Positions 1 to 39,012 of a stretch of 64,000 nucleotides of DNA are shown piece after piece (positions within the stretch are counted from its first letter, which is position 1; every line of letters begins with the position of its first letter). A program made the translations under genes and the position numbers. The stretch is from Symbiotaphrina buchneri (Eukaryota; Ascomycota; Symbiotaphrinales; Symbiotaphrinaceae): positions 186,001 through 250,000 of the forward strand of contig BCIG01000025.1 of the NCBI GenBank assembly GCA_001599915.1. Direction: 5' to 3'. A model generated the notes under the pieces. The model searched no databases. It was given only the letters and a program-made list of their open reading frames with translations, and had not been told where the DNA came from.

Positions 1-2065
1 AGCACAGCCATCGCCAATCTCCTCGGACGCACGCTGGAAGCTGGGTACTGCTCGGCCCAAGGTTGGAAGCCAAGGCTAAAGAGCCACGGCTCGTTCCCGC
101 CCTTCAGCAACGTGGTCCTCCGCACAGTTTTTTGATCCTTCCCTTTAATTAAAGTATTATTGACGCAACCAGCAAAAATCGAAGGGCCAAAGCGGACTCG
201 GTATCGACCTTCCCCCCAAACACCGAGCGACGGAAATCTGCGCATCGTTAACCACAACACAAACTGTTATCTTGGTCTTAAAGACCGGTACTTCCATGAT
301 AAAAAGCATAGTATTACTATGCTAATACGGACGCCGTCAGCATTTCCAGTCAGCACGAGTGCTCTGTGAAGATACGGAAACCTGTACACGATAGACCAGC
401 TTCAGTTGCGAGGATTGAGTCGGCGGTCGGAAAAAGAAATACTTTCGTCTTAAGGAGGTTTCTTATTTAGGACGACAACGACATCAGGCTCACGCCTAGC
501 ACAGCAAAGCGAGAGGAGGTACGACATCTTCTTTTGGTGCAAAAGGTCTTGTTTCCGCTCGCCGTACCTGCTACATACGCTGGTCCTGGTCTAGCTCGGG
601 CTGGCTGCAGCTTAAATCGTGGCCCCCCTGCTGCGAAGCTACAGGCCACGCTTGACAGGGATAACCCATCAATTGACCGGCTCTCCTTAGAGTTCGAGAG
701 TCGGTTCGTGCAGGGATTGCCGACGTGCACCAATTGTTCGCCTCTTCTGGAGCGCCAAAAGAAGCCGTTTTCCATCCCGTCGTCTGCCTTGTCCATCATC
801 TAAGCTTCCGAGGTCAGGTCGGAAGAAGTCAGAGTCAGAACAATTGTCTCCCCCCCTGGCGCGCTGCCCGCTCGGTCTCCACCTTCTTCCGTATTCACCA
901 CCCCTCAGCTGTCACCGCCAGCGTCACCTGTCAATCTATTACATCCCTTGTCTGCCGATATCATTCGCCGACTCGCATATTACCGCGCATTCACCTCAAG
1001 CCAGGGACTGCTGGCATATCTTGCATCCCAAAATCTGTCAAATTAGACACTGGCCCAAGGCACCGTTGCAGCCTTCGGCCCTCGACGACAGCGGTTTACG
1101 AAGAGACGTTTGTCTGCCAACCCTGCCTGATTATCCGTCCTTGCTTGTCTCACTGCAAGGAGCATCTTGGACATTTTTGGCTTGTTGGGCTCTTCGCATC
1201 AACGAGGCTCGACCGACCACCAGCAATCAAGTTAAGCCTACGGTGGAGACTCGAAGGGAACCAAGTGAAGACGAGAAGATTGCTTCCGGTATTGCTTTCG
1301 CTAGCTGTGGCCTCGTGGCTCATTCCCATCTCCGGCAGGAAAACGCGCCTTATTTTCGCAGCCGAGGCAGGTTCCACAATTCTTCAAGCGGCCCCGGAGA
1401 CAAAACTCATATTAATAGCCGGCCAGCTAGAAGCTCCAGCGTGGTCTCGAAGTCATCTCACAGGATATCCCTTGCACAGCAAAAGCAGAGAATCTGTCCC
1501 TTTACTTAAGAGTTTAGGGGTCGAACCCCACCTCACGTTTTCCATGAGGGATCTTCATACGCTAGCCTCAAGGTAACTCTTCTCGTCGCGCTCGACCACG
1601 AGTAACAAGAAGTCTGTTACACTCCCCACCCAGCCTTGGTCATCCGGGACTTCTGGGATTGATCGGCGCTTCCAGTCAGGCCACCCAGACGCTATCTAGA
1701 GGTTCTCATTTCCAGATATCCGCTTTTTCGTCCCAACCCTCCGGGATCTTCGAGAAGCTGGCGCAAACCCGGCGTACTCTGATTATCATATCAAGACATA
1801 CAACCTGGCAGCGCTTGTGCGTCAAGACGGGGCGACTATTGTAGAGGGCGAGCAAATCAGTGATAAGGCTGCCGGCGGTCTTTCTCTAACACTGGTCCGG
1901 CAACGTCCTACACCAAACTCGCTCCGCACTGTGCCCTCGTTTGGCAGATTGGCAAGACGTGCATCAAGATCCTGGACATCGATTTCATACGGATCGCAAC
2001 CTCCCACCCCTACGGTTGGGTCGGAAGAAGACTCGCACCCGTTGTTTAGCCTCCCGCGTCTTTCT
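1..2065. other. Non-coding stretch / long 5' leader upstream of flbA
   Basis: No convincing gene is visible. Open frames at 725-1576 and 844-1509 lack ATG-led domain-like protein and match nothing I know. The last part (about 1700-2065) is open in the same frame as the first flbA exon, so flbA may begin further upstream. One possible route is an ATG at 1543 followed by a GTAACT donor and an acceptor near 1701, but this is speculative. The stretch therefore probably holds the promoter, the 5' untranslated region and perhaps an unresolved N-terminal exon. Many short upstream reading frames could affect translation of flbA. Confidence 0.4.
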
Positions 2066-31674: not shown

Positions 31675-33147
31675 ATGCAGGCAATGGATTTCGAGGCCGA
31701 AGACGACGTACCACCTTTGCTCGTCGGTGCAGATGGCGATGACGTTCCATCTACGAGCCAGCTGGATGCTGAGATGGGCGACTTAGCAGTAGTCAAGGTC
31801 CCTATAACGATCGTAACTGGTCTGCCTGCACCACCCTCTACTTGGTGTGGTGCAGAATCCTGATAGTCATGGAAATACAGGTTATTTGGGTGCCGGAAAA
31901 ACAACTCTCATGAATTATATCTTGGGCGAACAACACGGGAAGAAGATTGCAGTTATACTCAATGGCTTGTATACACTCTGCTACAACATGGAAGCTTAAG
32001 GATGGCTAGCTAACCGAAATGGATATTGCAGAGTTTGGTGACTGTAAGCTATCCGGTCTTCTCTAACGCTTCTTTGCTGATACGTAGAATACAGCTGCCG
32101 ATATAGAGAAAGCCCTGACCGTCAATAAAGATGGTCAGCAAGTCGAGGAGTGGCTGGAGCTTGCAAATGGCTGCATCTGCTGTTCTGTGAAGTCCGTGTC
32201 CATAATGCAGACGCCGAAGAAATGCTAAGTCCTCTGCAGGGATTCCGGGGTCAATGCCATTGAGTCATTGATGGAGAGAAAAGGAGCATTCGATTACATC
32301 TTACTGGAGACCACCGGCCTTGCTGACCCTGGAAATATTGCGCCTTTATTTTGGGTAGACGAGGGCTTGGGCAGTACCATCTATCTGGATGGGATTGTGA
32401 CGCTGGTTGATGCAAAGAATATACTACGAAGTCTGGATGACACGCCCTGTAATCCGGACGACGTACACGAAGGTCATGAGGGCCCAGCATTGAGCACGGC
32501 ACATCTTCAAATTTCTCATGCGGATATCATTGTGATCAATAAGAGCGACTTGGTCTCGGATGAAGAACTGAGAACCGTCCGCCAGCGGGTACAGGCGATC
32601 AATGGTCTTGCCAAAGTGCATGTGACACAGCATGGTCGCGTTCCGCAGCTTGAGGGGCTGTTGCTCGATTTACACGCGTATGATGATGTCGGTGGCCTGA
32701 ATGTCTCTGTACAACATAGTCATCTTGATCCTGTATGCCACCCGGTACCATGATTCCATTCTCAGCTAACACCAAGTTCAGTCAATATCGACTATGACAA
32801 TATCCTTTCCTGCTATTGAAGCTGAGCAGCTTGCCATGCTCGACGCATGGTTACAGTCAGTCTTGTGGGAATTGAACTTGCCTCCACCTTCGGAGTCTGC
32901 CCTGGGCGCTGACATGGCAGCGTTTGAGATTCACCGGTTAAAGGGGAGGGTCCTGCTGAAGGATGGTTCCATTAAGATGATACAGGGCGTGCGCGAGGTT
33001 TTCGAGATCCTGGATGTCAAGGATGCTGCTACAAACGCCTCATCGGAACTTCCTAAGATGACCGAAGGCGGGAAGTTGGTGATCATCGGGAGGAACCTGA
33101 CTGGTCTTCCATGGGAGCAAAGCTTGCACAACAGCCTGCAAATTTGA
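31675..33147 (+). CDS. COBW-domain zinc-metallochaperone GTPase (ZNG1-like)
   Basis: Six exons: 31675-31819, 31881-31964, 32032-32043, 32095-32191, 32240-32732 and 32782-33147; 398 residues. A second ATG at 31684 may be the start. The P-loop [15 protein letters not shown] spans the first intron. Next are NEFGDS, then the GCICC metal motif in [20 protein letters not shown], and the guanine motif VINKSD. The C-terminal CobW domain includes LWELNLP and FEIHRLKGR. Eukaryotic ZNG1 GTPases deliver zinc to methionine aminopeptidase 1. The N-terminal DDVPPLLV resembles the chaperone-client peptide of that family only loosely, without its Cys. Exon 3 has just 12 nt. The intron before it seems to begin with GC instead of GT, since only AATG|GC keeps the conserved NEFG. 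Confidence 0.9.
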
Positions 33148-33551: not shown

Positions 33552-35199
33552 ATGTCAGTGGTTGTCGATCAAGTACTACCTTTCCCAAGTTCTCAGCTTG
33601 ATCTCGAAAATCCCGAACGATGGGCGAACCTTTTCCCACTCATAAGACCGACCGTTGCGAAAGCGCAATCGTCTCAAAACAAATCAATTCTGATAGACAA
33701 GGCCCTGAGCAGTAGCCAATATGTTCAGATAGCAGCTATCGGTACAACAGGCAATTTCTCAAGCAAACTACTACAGGAGAAGGGAGTCGCAGCGTTCGCA
33801 ACGGCTGACCCTCGAAGCGGAAGTATTTCGGCCAAGGATCTTGAGAAGGCCCTCACGGGTAATGGAATACCATTGCACAATGGCTTGGTCGTCGTGAAAG
33901 CGAGCACACAACGGAAGTTGGAGGTCCTGGATTCTGGGTTGCTCCTGGTGGAGGTCGCTGGGGAGCTGGAATTCGATCATGTGCTCGCATTGTTACTGGC
34001 AACCAATGATGAGACCAAGTAAGGCTTTGATATCTGAGTGTTGTGCTAGATCTAATCAGTGTAGGGCATCCCTAGACTCGATCAAAGAATTGATGAAGGC
34101 GTTCCTCAAGACCGCATCAAAAACCAAATCTACGTTCGCGAAACCAAAACGCGGGTCGAATCCCACCATCGATCATGCTGAAGAGGAGGCAGCGGTATTT
34201 GAGTCGGCAAAAAAAGCGGTTCAGAAGGATCTGGCCCATGTCATGAAGTCGCATACGGCGAAGGAGGCAGATGTGGTATACTCGGTTCACTACTCGGACA
34301 TCAACGGTCTTTCTAGGCTAGAGAATTGGATATTGGCTCATGAAATATCGGCTTTCTTGGGTGAGTGGCCCCAAGACGTCCTAAATAAATCTAACTAATT
34401 TGTCCCTCAAGACTCGCAGAATCTCGCTCATCACATCAGCTCCTCGACCATCCTCGACCACAGTCTTGGTACACGCGGGTGGACAACATCCATCTCTCCC
34501 GTACCCGCAAAATTCCTATCTGCGCAGACAAAACCCACGAACAAGATCACCAAGACTTCCAGCTCTGCCGCCGCTATCCCTATTCAGCAAGGTAACAAAG
34601 AACCGGCGCTTCGATTCAGTGATGCTGCTGTCCGGCAGCGTATTACTCTAGGATGCGGCGCCGTCATCAAGGCCGAGCCCACCATAACGGAGTACGACAC
34701 CATCGTGGGAGACGGCGACTGCGGATACACCCTGCGCGATGGAGCGAAGCAAGTACTCAGCTTCATTGCGAACGAGGACCTCACGGACCTACAAGTTGCC
34801 TTGTCCCGGATCGTGGACGACCTTGAGGTCAACATGGGCGGAACGAGCGGCGCCTTATATTGTATCTTCCTGTCGGCCTTGGCTCAGCATCTGTGGACTG
34901 CGCCAACCTTCCCTGACGCTCTCGCCGCTTCCCTGGAGCACCTCTTGAACTACACGCGTGCACGTCTGGGAGACAGGACCATGTTGGACTGCCTTATTCC
35001 CTTTGTGGAAACTTTCAAGTCTAGCGGGGGAGATGTGGCAAAGGCTTTGGAAGAGGCAGCCAAGGGCGTAGAGACGACGAAGAAGTTGGAGGCAAAGCTG
35101 GGGCGGAGCACCTATCTGGACGAAAGCGCGACGAGGGGCGTACCAGATCCAGGAGCTTATGGATTGCTGGTGCTCCTGCAGGGCATGGGACAAGTATAG
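33552..35199 (+). CDS. Dihydroxyacetone-kinase-like protein: divergent N-terminus plus intact DhaL domain
   Basis: Three exons, 33552-34018, 34065-34360 and 34412-35199; 516 residues. The C-terminal 200 residues are a DhaL nucleotide-binding domain. The three metal-binding aspartates are present in EYDTIVGDGDCGYTLRDGA, followed by NMGGTSGALYCIFLSALA, GDRTMLDCLIPF and GVPDPGAYG. The N-terminal 300 residues are not a normal DhaK lobe. The GGGSGHEP loop and the substrate-binding histidine motif are missing. A stretch near 215-260 (SDINGLSRLENWILAHEI, then LDHSLGTRGW) looks like a worn form of the second DhaK subdomain; this is my inference. The first 200 residues I do not recognise. Fungal DHA kinases normally join complete DhaK and DhaL in one chain of about 590 residues. 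The next gene encodes DhaK alone, so the two products may act together. Confidence 0.8.
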
Positions 35200-35788
35200 G
35201 CAGGTTCAACAAGCACGTGAAATTTCCGCGGCGGGCAGCATGGACATCAGTCAGCATTTTAGCATTAATAACAGATAGAAGATAACTCGTTCCACAGCGG
35301 TCCTCCTTCACGAACTTTCCTCCTACTATCGACATTTTAAGCATTCCACTACTGCAATCGAATAGAGCCGTCACATTGAGAAATCGGTTGCCCAGTTTGC
35401 TCGTGGGCCCCATACAATCCATCTCCAAAGTCATGCGGGTCAGAGTCGGCGCCGGTGTGGCCGAGCTGCGACCGGAATTGCCCCTTTGGGCCGACCCGGT
35501 GCGCTAGCGCGGGGCCCTGCGAAGTGCGGGGATAGCACCGCGAACTAGGCCGGGCCACTCGTTCGTCGCGTTGCTCTGGCTCCTGCGAGCAATGGCAGAA
35601 TAATTTCTCCAGGAGATCGATTGTCTATGAACGACGAGACTTGACAAGACCTGAGAGCAGCGGTGCCATTTCCATATTGCTCGTTATATTCGGCAGTGGC
35701 CAGAAATCACCAATATATCAGGCACTTGAGGGACTACACTTGTACAGAGATTGGCAAGGGCGCCCGTGAAATCGCAGGCACTGCCATC
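35200..35788. other. Intergenic region upstream of DhaK gene
   Basis: 589 bases between the two DHA-kinase-type genes. A GC-rich core at about 35440-35560 contrasts with the flanks. It includes two GCGGGG sequences, listed separately. This is the likely DhaK promoter; no gene is visible. Confidence 0.5.
35509..35531 (+). promoter_or_regulatory. Pair of putative CreA-binding sites upstream of DhaK gene
   Basis: GCGGGG occurs at 35509-35514 and 35526-35531, a direct pair with an 11-base gap. Both fit the CreA consensus SYGGRG, and closely spaced pairs are known to matter for CreA action. The motif is short, so single hits are expected by chance. Only the pairing about 260 bases before a glycerol/DHA pathway gene makes it worth noting. 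Confidence 0.3.
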
Positions 35789-37017
35789 ATGGCGACAGAG
35801 ACGCAGACGGAGACAAAGGAGACATTTCACTTCATCAATGACTCCTCCGATGCCATCAATGAGGCATTGACAGGCCTTACAGAGCTCAACCCCTACCTCT
35901 CTTACGCGCCCTCACATAAGATCGTCTACCGGAGCGATCTGGAGACGTTCCGGGAAGACCATGTCACATGCATAGGAGCCAGTGGTGGTGGACAGTACGT
36001 CCTCTCTCCAATCTTTTCTGTTCTGACTCGGCTTAGTCGATAACGTTCTGCGTACAGTGAGCCAATGTTCGGCGGGTTCGTCGGCCAGAACTTCCTCTCC
36101 GCCTATGTATCCGGCAACATATTCGCCTCGCCAACTGCGAGCCAGCTTTTTGAAGCGATCAAGATGTGCCAGCCTGCAAGCGGCGAGGGGAAGGGCGTCC
36201 TACTTGTTATGGGTAATTATACCGGTGATATCTTGAACGCCGGCCTGGCAATCACCCGGGCAAATGCAGCCGGCTATAAAGTGCGGTTCGTGCCAGTGGG
36301 TGATGATGTTGCCGTAGGTCGGAAGAAAGGGGGAAAAGTTGGACGAAGAGGTCTGAGTGGCCACTTAGTCGCCCTGAAAATAGCATCGGCTCTGGCGAAT
36401 CGAGGAGAGAGTTTGGACAGGGTTGCGGACGTGATGGAGTACATGACCCAGAACGTGGGAACCATTGGGGTGGCTTTCGACCGGTTTGTAACCTGCTCCC
36501 CTCAGATATAAGGCAACAGCTAACTTGCGACAGGGTGGCCCTGCCAAACGGCATTTTGACCGAACTCCAGACGCTGCCACCCCAGACCATAGAACTTGGA
36601 ATGGGAGTCCACGGCGAGCCAGGTCTGGAACGAATCTCGCCGATACCGACCCCCGAAGAGTTGACCAAGCGGATGATCACACTCCTGACAGACACCTCAG
36701 ACAATGACCGCTCTTTTATACCATTCTCTTCGAACCGCGACGATGATGGAGATGTCGTGCTTCTTTTGAACTCCCTGGGTTCGACATCGGACGAGGTGCT
36801 AGCCCGCTTTGCTGAATTAGGAATTGCGGAGCTGCAGAGACAGGGTTTCAATGTTAACAGGCTGACCCTTGGCCCACTCGCCACGAGCTTGAAGATGAGT
36901 GGTTTCGGCTTCACGCTCTGGAGACTACCCAGCAAAAAGGGCGGCGAGGCCTTGACCAGGGACGAAGCACTCAAATTGTGGGATAGCCCTGTCAAGGTGG
37001 TGTCGTGGAGGCAATAG
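35789..37017 (+). CDS. Free-standing DhaK subunit (dihydroxyacetone-binding kinase domain)
   Basis: Three exons, 35789-35994, 36058-36483 and 36534-37017; 371 residues. It is a full DhaK domain: GASGGGHEPMFGGFVG near residues 63-78, NYTGDILNAGLA, GDDVAVGRKKGG with GRRGLSGH, and ELGMGVHGEPGLERISP. The histidine in VHGEPG (about 237) is the residue that binds dihydroxyacetone covalently in this family. The second subdomain ends with LKMSGFGFTLWRL. The chain then stops, with no DhaL domain, so alone it lacks the nucleotide site. Single-domain DhaK is usual in bacterial PTS-dependent systems, while fungal enzymes are normally fused. The partner could be the DhaL-type protein encoded 590 bases upstream. 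It converges on the MOSC gene with 44 bases between stops. Confidence 0.88.
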
Positions 37018-37061: not shown

Positions 37062-38506
37062 TTATTGTCGGATGTAAAAGTGCACGCCTGTTTCGATCAC
37101 TTCGATCGGATCCCCGACTTTGATAGGAGCCCCTATTTTAGGATTAGCAGTTGCACATCAGCGGCCAGCATTTGACTTACACTCCGAAGCTGGAACCATT
37201 TGCATGCCCAAACAGGCAAGGCCTTTGGCTCCTTCATCGACCTCGCGATGTTTCCTCAAGGTCTTGTCAGGTTCAATAGGATGTTTAAGCCCCGTCAGCG
37301 GATCAGTGTTTGGTAGCTTGCATCTTGCCGTCCGGCAAGCTACATAGTAGACTCCATCCCCTATCCTAATCTTCTTCCAGGTATCCTCAGCATATGGTTC
37401 CGGTCCAGTGACTATATTCAAGTTTAGCAATTAGTAGCTGAAGGAGCCAACAACCAAGCCTACTTATGATGTTAGGTCGAAACCGTATTGCACTGATCCT
37501 TGGCGCATCATTGGGAAGTAGACTTTCAACTTCGCGAACACTTGCCAGATTCATCATATGCAATGGGTACTGAAACAGATATTAGCATGAGAGGATTGCA
37601 GTATGACCATGAGAGACTTACTGCGTCGGCAAATCCAGTAATTGGTTGATACCCCACTTCTTCTTTTCTGGGAGCGCACCGGAACACCTGCCGCTCATGT
37701 GCCTGAGCGACGCGGAAGAGCGAAATCTCGGCCTTGATGCCCAGGAATTGGCCCAATTCCTTCGGGACATGTACTCCCATGTTCAACGCTAGTGGGGAGT
37801 CTTTCCAGATCGTCATTTGCTCCATTGTGTAACCGTTGTCCTTGATCTGCTCCGGGGTTGGGTTCATCGGAATCCGGAAAGATATCTCTCCCTCTCCCAG
37901 GACGCCTTCAATTAATCTCGCTAGAAACCCACCAGCGCGTGGTCTAGGAAATCTAACAATAATGACTCCTCCACTCTGTACATCCGCAGTGTTTGTAGAA
38001 TATGTTGGTGATGCAGCATCTGGAATCCATAATTCGGTCCGCACGCGGGCGAGGAGCGGTAACCGCCTCTGTGTAAGAAATTCCCATTTCGTAGCGTTCG
38101 ACTTGTCTGCGGCTGCAGGGACAGACTTGAGATGTGCGAAAGAGAACTGCCTGTCATATGCCATCCCTGTGCTGACTACCTCCCCCCTATTGAGCTCCAC
38201 ACCTCTGCAGCTCTTCACAGGATATATCCATAGACTCTTCACCCTCCAGAGCGGGCCTCCCTGCACATCATTTCCCGGCGGCTGACCTTGCGCATATTTG
38301 GGGTCAAATTCGTCCGATAAATTGCTAGTTGTTCGTAAGCCCAGCTTTCGGCATCCCCTCGGCGCTGTTTGCGCTGAACGACGCCTCCAAACCTCAAAGG
38401 TGAAGAGAGCGAGGACAGGTCCCAAACAGAAGATGCAGACGAACGCAAGAAAAGCTTGCGACGAAAGCTCGTAACGTGGAAGAAAAGCAACTCTCAGCCC
38501 ATCCAT
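37062..38506 (-). CDS. MOSC-domain, membrane-anchored mARC-like protein
   Basis: Four exons on the minus strand, 38506-37622, 37569-37464, 37411-37181 and 37132-37062; 430 residues. Residues 18-38 (FLAFVCIFCLGPVLALF) are a transmembrane anchor. A MOSC N-terminal beta-barrel follows (LWRVKSLWIYPVKSCRGVEL), then the MOSC domain. RCKLPNTDPLTG contains the conserved cysteine that holds the molybdenum cofactor in this family. The end reads IKVGDPIEVIETG. Animal mARC enzymes sit on the outer mitochondrial membrane and reduce N-hydroxylated compounds using cytochrome b5. The same chemistry is likely but not shown. A Moco sulfurase is excluded because the aminotransferase-like domain is absent. Confidence 0.88.
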
Positions 38507-39012
38507 CTTGCTTGCAGTCTATGCCGGGAGCAATTGCGAGGTTTGCAGCCTTTCCTCCTCTTCACGTACGTCTAACAAAACATCTACACAGCCAGGTGGT
38601 GTACGAAGGTCCCCTGCCTGTCAGAGTCGATCGCCAACAACTAGCGTGCATTCAAGCCTTTGTCACTACAGGTCCCTCCGCCCTCCCGTAGTTAATGACG
38701 AGCGCCGTCCCGCTCGTCGCGTCTACCAGTCCAACCAATGCGCGTGGGCATAGTGCTTTGATGTGCAGGTAATACTTTTATAAGCAACCCGCATCCTATG
38801 ATCAATCACAGCATTCGTTCTTCGGAGCATCAAGTCGTGTCTACTTGATACCGCGGCTAAGCTCGCTCATCGGATTCTTGTGTCAAAGACACCATTGGTG
38901 GCTGAACTTGTCATGTTTGTCATACTGAACCTATGCATGGAGAAAGTTGCCACATCTGTTGTTCATTGTCTTTTGCTTCGGGCGCCTCGTGCCCTTCTTT
39001 CTCATCTTTCCC
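38507..39012. other. Divergent promoter region, MOSC gene / RAD51 paralogue
   Basis: 506 bases between two divergent start codons. No gene or clear repeat is seen. A TATA box was not evident on either side. Confidence 0.45.

Follow-up and report, generated by a model that had tools for sequence, protein, structure and literature searches.

In the fused ATP-dependent kinases of the dihydroxyacetone kinase family, a DhaK domain is followed by a DhaL domain in one chain, and in the human and Citrobacter enzymes, as the excerpt of PMC6429413 describes them, such chains form intertwined dimers (L2-K1-K2-L1) whose active sites lie between the K of one chain and the L of the other. Kinases of erythrulose are also described: LerK is a bacterial one, with LerI and DerI together taking L-erythrulose 1-phosphate to erythrose 4-phosphate (excerpted text of PMC10733421), and in Yarrowia lipolytica the erythrulose kinase EYK1 is placed near EryI-like and EryH-like isomerases and dehydrogenase genes (available portion of PMC5992420). 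Here we describe two neighbouring genes, an upstream one (UP) with a DhaL domain and a downstream one (DN) with a DhaK domain, in a 64,000-nucleotide stretch (“the window”) of the fungus Symbiotaphrina buchneri (contig BCIG01000025.1, positions 186,001 to 250,000; contig C25 below). We think it rather probable that their products, as two subunits, make up a single ATP-dependent ketose kinase belonging to this family, and we infer that such a heteromeric kinase is the most economical reading of the pair. Among the matches listed in the open-licence literature, as represented by titles and the beginnings of abstracts, no fungal pair of this kind is described; N. crassa is credited with two candidate DAK genes in the excerpt of PMC13158570.

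Results

Of the NCBIfam models, TIGR02361 (dak_ATP, the fused ATP-dependent glycerone kinase) fits both proteins best; they score higher on it than on the separate-subunit models, and they cover it in complementary halves: UP residues 291-513 align to positions 348-582, and DN residues 14-370 to positions 2-344, of its 583. The sequence-only reading from which this analysis started had proposed that the two genes together restore one enzyme; of this, the alignments support the complementary halves on two genes. Neither protein has the DhaK-then-DhaL layout of the model in one chain, and both score (UP 202.5 bits, DN 327.2 bits) below its curated cut-off of 574.95, so that neither is a member of the family as a single chain.

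UP (33552-35199, + strand) is modelled with three exons and 516 residues, one of the 12 splicing choices tried leaving the frame free of stops. Exon 1 (33552..34018, donor GTAAGG) encodes an N-terminal region (residues 1-155) that matches no family; exon 2 (34065..34360) holds the start of a stretch weakly resembling the K2 part of DhaK (residues 224-285; 34267-34503, spliced); and exon 3 (34412..35199) carries the end of that stretch, a linker, the full DhaL domain and the stop. The Pfam Dak2 match spans residues 353-513 (E 7.5e-43; 146.9 bits, gathering score 27), and the features by which a DhaL is recognised are all present: the Asp cluster EYDTIVGDGDCG (residues 348-359; 34690..34725), which we take to bind the Mg-nucleotide, GGTSGALY (397-404; 34837..34860), GDRTM (441-445; 34969..34983) and PDPGAYG (499-505), containing GGTSG, GDRT and DPGA respectively. 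The complete nucleotide site seen in the sequence-only reading is therefore real, as is the lack of a GGGHEP loop and substrate histidine that it reported: a motif search of the UP protein gave no HEP, HxEP or H[GN]E, the Pfam scan gave no Dak1 even at E 1, and no domain other than Dak2 exceeded its Pfam cut-off. No relatives of UP were found among viral contigs.

DN (35789-37017) follows on the same strand after a gap of 589 bases (35200..35788), one fewer than had been stated, and is modelled with three exons and 371 residues, one of the six splicing choices tried giving an open frame. The four introns of the two genes are all GT..AG and measure 46, 51, 63 and 50 bases; introns this short, and domains such as Fungal_trans, agree with a fungal source. 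Pfam Dak1 covers DN residues 29-366 (E 4.7e-86; 289 bits, gathering score 31.4) and the Pfam scan gave no Dak2. Exon 1 (35789..35994) reaches the loop GASGGGHEP (residues 63-71), which is split by the first intron; exon 2 (36058..36483) contains MGNYTGD (36209-36229), with Gly121 at the place of the usual Lys and Asp126 retained; and exon 3 (36534..37017) carries GVHGEPG (residues 235-241; 36604-36624) with the substrate-binding His237, then the end of K2 and the stop, with no DhaL after it, as had been noticed. Thus the loop His69, the NYTGD Asp126 and the substrate His237 expected of a Dak1 protein are all there, and we presume acid/base roles for His69 and Asp126. GGGHEP and VHGEPG had both been noted in DN and both stand, with two refinements: the loop reads GASGGGHEP rather than the usual SGGGSGHEP, and a Gly replaces the Lys before NYTGD.

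A six-frame search of the assembly (82 contigs, 23.4 Mb) gave Dak1 matches only at C2:704419-705396, on another contig, and in two DN exons, and Dak2 matches only at C2:705904-706269 and in UP; there is therefore no recognisable DhaK exon upstream of UP. At the C2 locus adjoining open frames stand in the order K then L, one normal fused kinase, which answers the question, raised with the sequence-only reading, whether such an enzyme exists beside the pair. Its DhaK matches the fused Protein Data Bank (PDB) chain 26vk with 305 bits, against 186 bits for DN, and its DhaL is 46% identical to that of UP over three aligned pieces (21/39, 17/37 and 52/118). In the C2 kinase (C2:704419-706269; locus L006) Met replaces the Lys (VMNYTGD) and the motif around the substrate His reads GIHNEPG; it may not accept the same range of substrates as the bacterial enzymes do. 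The same assembly gave no match to a DegV/FakB-type binding protein, as a FakA/FakB system would have, nor to an EIIA-man type (DhaM) protein, as a DhaKLM system dependent on the phosphotransferase system would have.

Trees of the two domains place UP and DN alike. In the DhaL tree (32 rows, with the C2 DhaL assembled from three pieces at inexact splice borders, and usable pieces from 28 of the 29 bacterial loci chosen, L033 giving none), UP is sister to the C2 kinase plus 26vk with support of 100/99, the inner pair having 97/85. A DhaK tree whose 34 rows include all six Gly-type and two Asn-type rows described below and hand-picked Lys-type rows (13 of 35, and nine from the first set) gives DN the same position with 97/94, the inner pair having 98/91. 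From its sequence, the UP DhaL is a descendant of the fused-kinase line; the place of the DN DhaK beside the fused kinases is not certain. Such agreement between the two trees is to be expected if UP and DN both remain from a single duplicate of a fused gene.

We also examined the residue before NYTGD, Gly121 in DN, Lys in 26vk and Met in the C2 kinase. The usual Lys presumably has a role in substrate binding by DhaK. A scan of genome contigs with DN alone gave no relatives, and one with a four-row alignment gave 577, of which 80 were kept; a first set of 82 bacterial DhaK rows comes from 80 loci. Lys precedes NYTGD by pattern in 80 of these 82, one more reads KNYAGD, and one, from Sphingopyxis (L043), has Gly; the L043 locus has both TIM-type and RpiB-type genes and is the only one of the 80, within flanks of at most 3 kb, to have either. 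A second set came from 385 genomes of the same class searched with the L043 DhaK: 37 matched, yielding 43 rows, all examined, with L043 (counted in both sets) in its first locus and the others in 40 stretches of up to 6 kb on each side. Here the residue was Gly in six rows, Lys in 35 and Asn in two, and frames of RpiB and/or TIM type, in a search that used the L043 proteins, lay near four of the six Gly-type rows (L143, L147, L131 and L043, in NYTGD or NYAGD context) and none of the 37 others (Fisher p 1.2e-4, a value that is overstated because the events are not independent: the Gly-type rows all fall into a single clade, 100/98, within which two of the isomerase-linked four are closely related). 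It is possible that Gly before NYTGD or NYAGD marks other substrates in the DhaK family.

Discussion

In the heteromeric kinase that we propose, DN would bind the ketose covalently via His237, with His69 and Asp126 as acid and base, and the DhaL domain of UP would bind Mg-ATP and pass the phosphate on. Since each DhaL of an intertwined dimer works with the DhaK of its partner chain, a heterodimer could retain a single working site despite reciprocal loss, in which one of two tandem copies would be deprived of its DhaK function and the other of its DhaL domain, the inter-chain active site being kept. A tandem K-L-K-L arrangement whose first copy loses K and whose second loses L becomes a decayed K with L, then K, which is the order found here; thus a tandem copy with reciprocal loss would explain both the halves and the order that had been called reversed. 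The first ~290 residues of UP are probably a decayed DhaK, and this remnant may stand in for the second DhaK as the partner of DN. The assembly offers few alternative partners, with its one fused kinase and no DegV/FakB-type or EIIA-man match. If this proposal is correct, it would be a case of a metabolic enzyme turned heteromer, its two half-sites divided between tandem copies along a route eased by the intertwined dimer.

Several observations weigh against this reading, and most concern the UP N-terminus. Residues 1-291 match no NCBIfam model, and hhalign against DhaK gave a probability of 0.3% (E 0.19). A K1 alignment was equalled by 121 of 150 shuffles and by 77 of 112 unrelated windows. 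The borders of the K2-like stretch were chosen by eye and its support is weak. On the side of DN, the branch is long (1.69 in the 34-row tree); in a first DhaK tree of 85 rows DN joined Sphingopyxis L043, two long branches together; and in an approximately unbiased (AU) test on 30 rows a placement with the bacterial Gly-type clade, although worse by 15 log units, was not rejected (p-AU 0.148). DN also lacks the usual Lys, a residue not curated as defining. With the Gly- and Asn-type rows included, in the 34-row tree, DN and L043 separate.

Other searches with the UP N-terminus gave the following. It was not among the best 20 rows of an hmmsearch with a purpose-made DhaK profile, 19 of which were shuffles, and a search of its own genome returned only UP and a chance-level frame on contig C19 (E 0.025). 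Pairwise comparison of four segments, each with 300 shuffles, was weak at best, with 22-249 shuffles scoring as high against the C2 kinase, 160-266 against DN and 9-28 against 26vk. In segment tests 17 of 200 shuffles equalled K1 and none of 200 equalled K2. The best K2 window (residues 223-285), equalled by one of 1669 background windows but itself the best of many, directly precedes the start of the TIGR02361 match at residue 291; the best K1 window (121-222), again the best of many, is in the wrong place and yet was equalled by only one of 825, which weakens both scans. AlphaFold2 gave exon 1 alone a mean predicted local distance difference test score (pLDDT) of 37.9. An apparent colinearity of exon 1 with 13 bacterial DhaKs in a MAFFT alignment was dropped, as controls aligned equally well, and the pLDDT of 57.7 obtained with those 13 rows supplied was circular and was not used.

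Other explanations can be set against the heteromeric kinase. UP and DN might not be partners at all, DN instead using the C2 DhaL, or UP acting on the C2 kinase, whether by regulating it or by supplying an extra DhaL; a fused kinase is indeed present, and its DhaL domain and that of UP are still 46% identical, but UP and DN are adjacent, on one strand, complementary and alike in their tree positions, and descriptions of fused enzymes show them as intertwined homodimers (excerpt of PMC6429413), so that we think this unlikely. That one or both proteins are non-kinase regulators, in the manner of DhaQ, coactivator of a DhaKLM operon, would fit the missing Lys, the altered loop and the long branch of DN, as well as the unrecognisable N-terminus of UP. 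Against it, DN keeps its substrate His, loop His and Asp, UP keeps the DhaL motifs that were checked, and DN scores only 158.9 bits on the DhaQ model; we give the regulators little credence.

A different view of UP takes its N-terminus as an unrelated domain, substrate-binding or other, which would make UP a kinase of its own kind, FakA-like in that a DhaL works with another binding protein. Its lack of recognisable DhaK similarity agrees with this, but the assembly has no DegV/FakB-type match and the weak K2-like match at residues 223-285 stands where a DhaK should end, before residue 291, and the chance of it seems to us slight. It is scarcely credible that the pair is an artefact, a single fused gene that an assembly error or a wrong gene model has broken in two: the models do come from sequence alone, yet a broken K-L gene would have K first and here L is first, the UP match ends at 582 of the 583 positions of TIGR02361 where the DN match begins at 2, and the assembly search gave no further Dak1 or Dak2 exons.

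What the heteromeric kinase would act on may be considered in the light of two isomerase genes. The one RpiB-type match in the genome (C25:127952-128377) has a TIM-type gene beside it (C25:129273-129875), a further TIM gene lying on C2. This pair (C25:127952-129875; L098:4949-7130, - strand) lies ~90 kb upstream of UP and DN, and its side-by-side layout resembles that of LerI and DerI (EryH and EryI) in tetritol catabolism. The RpiB-type protein matches its L043 counterpart in 89 of 144 columns. It scores 183.9 on TIGR02133 (ribose-5-phosphate isomerase), over the cut-off of 168.2, and 146.5 on the D-erythrulose-4-phosphate isomerase model, under the cut-off of 240, so that it may have an ordinary pentose role; an A. 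nidulans gene named rpiB is listed as ribose 5-phosphate isomerase in the excerpt of PMC5863803. The best PDB match of the TIM-type protein is 3s6d, a putative triosephosphate isomerase, and its fourth is 11ef, an entry named L-erythrulose-1-phosphate isomerase, just after two triosephosphate isomerases.

Thus a tetrulose route may exist in this genome with no kinase assigned to it, UP/DN and the C2 kinase being candidates, and a tetrulose is possibly the UP/DN substrate; at a distance of ~90 kb the isomerase pair gives no gene-cluster argument. The new substrate suggested in the sequence-only reading is supported indirectly by the Lys-to-Gly change and the TIM-RpiB pair. A fuller scenario, which we offer tentatively and consider somewhat unlikely in its entirety, would make UP and DN an obligate heteromer. 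Tandem duplication of a fused, intertwined enzyme, followed by reciprocal loss, would have left a chain of pseudo-DhaK and DhaL beside a separate DhaK, and a single active site where there had been two; the Lys-to-Gly change would have retuned the enzyme, formerly acting on dihydroxyacetone, for a ketose of four carbons, and the enzyme would feed the TIM- and RpiB-like pair towards erythrose 4-phosphate. If true, this would supply a candidate tetrulose kinase step for a fungus whose genome carries such isomerases.

As for the surroundings, frames of a CobW-type GTPase (window 32229-33147; Pfam cobW E 5.9e-22, with CobW_C at 21.6 bits just below its cut-off of 22) stand directly upstream of UP on the same strand, and Mob1 and Lon genes lie further upstream. 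Convergent with DN on the - strand is a MOSC-domain protein (37158-38518), with MOSC_N at 46.6 bits in one frame and MOSC at 21.8 bits, just below its cut-off of 22.7, in another. Pfam found no sugar-metabolism domain in the 21 other, longer frames of the window that were scanned.

Comparison with known systems

The sequence-only reading had likened the pair to bacterial DhaK and DhaL subunits. The likeness holds in that the substrate and nucleotide sites are on separate chains; it is less apt otherwise, because the fused model is the best-scoring one for UP as well as DN and both trees place them near fused kinases, with the place of DN not certain. A DhaM may belong to the bacterial system, and here the assembly has no EIIA-man (DhaM-type) match; UP also has ~290 extra N-terminal residues. 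DhaQ, a coactivator and a paralogue of DhaK, offers another parallel, being a DhaK-family protein with another use, as known from Lactococcus, but its model (158.9 bits with DN) falls far below dak_ATP (327.2 bits).

With the erythrulose kinases LerK and EYK1, as excerpts of the sources present them, the likeness is that this genome too has adjacent TIM- and RpiB-type genes, and that the Gly of DN is the one found in bacterial DhaKs near such genes; EYK1, however, is near dehydrogenase and isomerase genes, whereas the isomerases here are ~90 kb away. The fused dak_ATP kinases, among them the fungus's own C2 enzyme, 26vk and human TKFC (excerpt of PMC6429413), are alike with the pair in best score, mostly kept active-site motifs and tree position, the last less certainly for DN. 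They differ in being one chain, where UP and DN are two, with UP having no recognisable DhaK and DN a Gly in place of the Lys.

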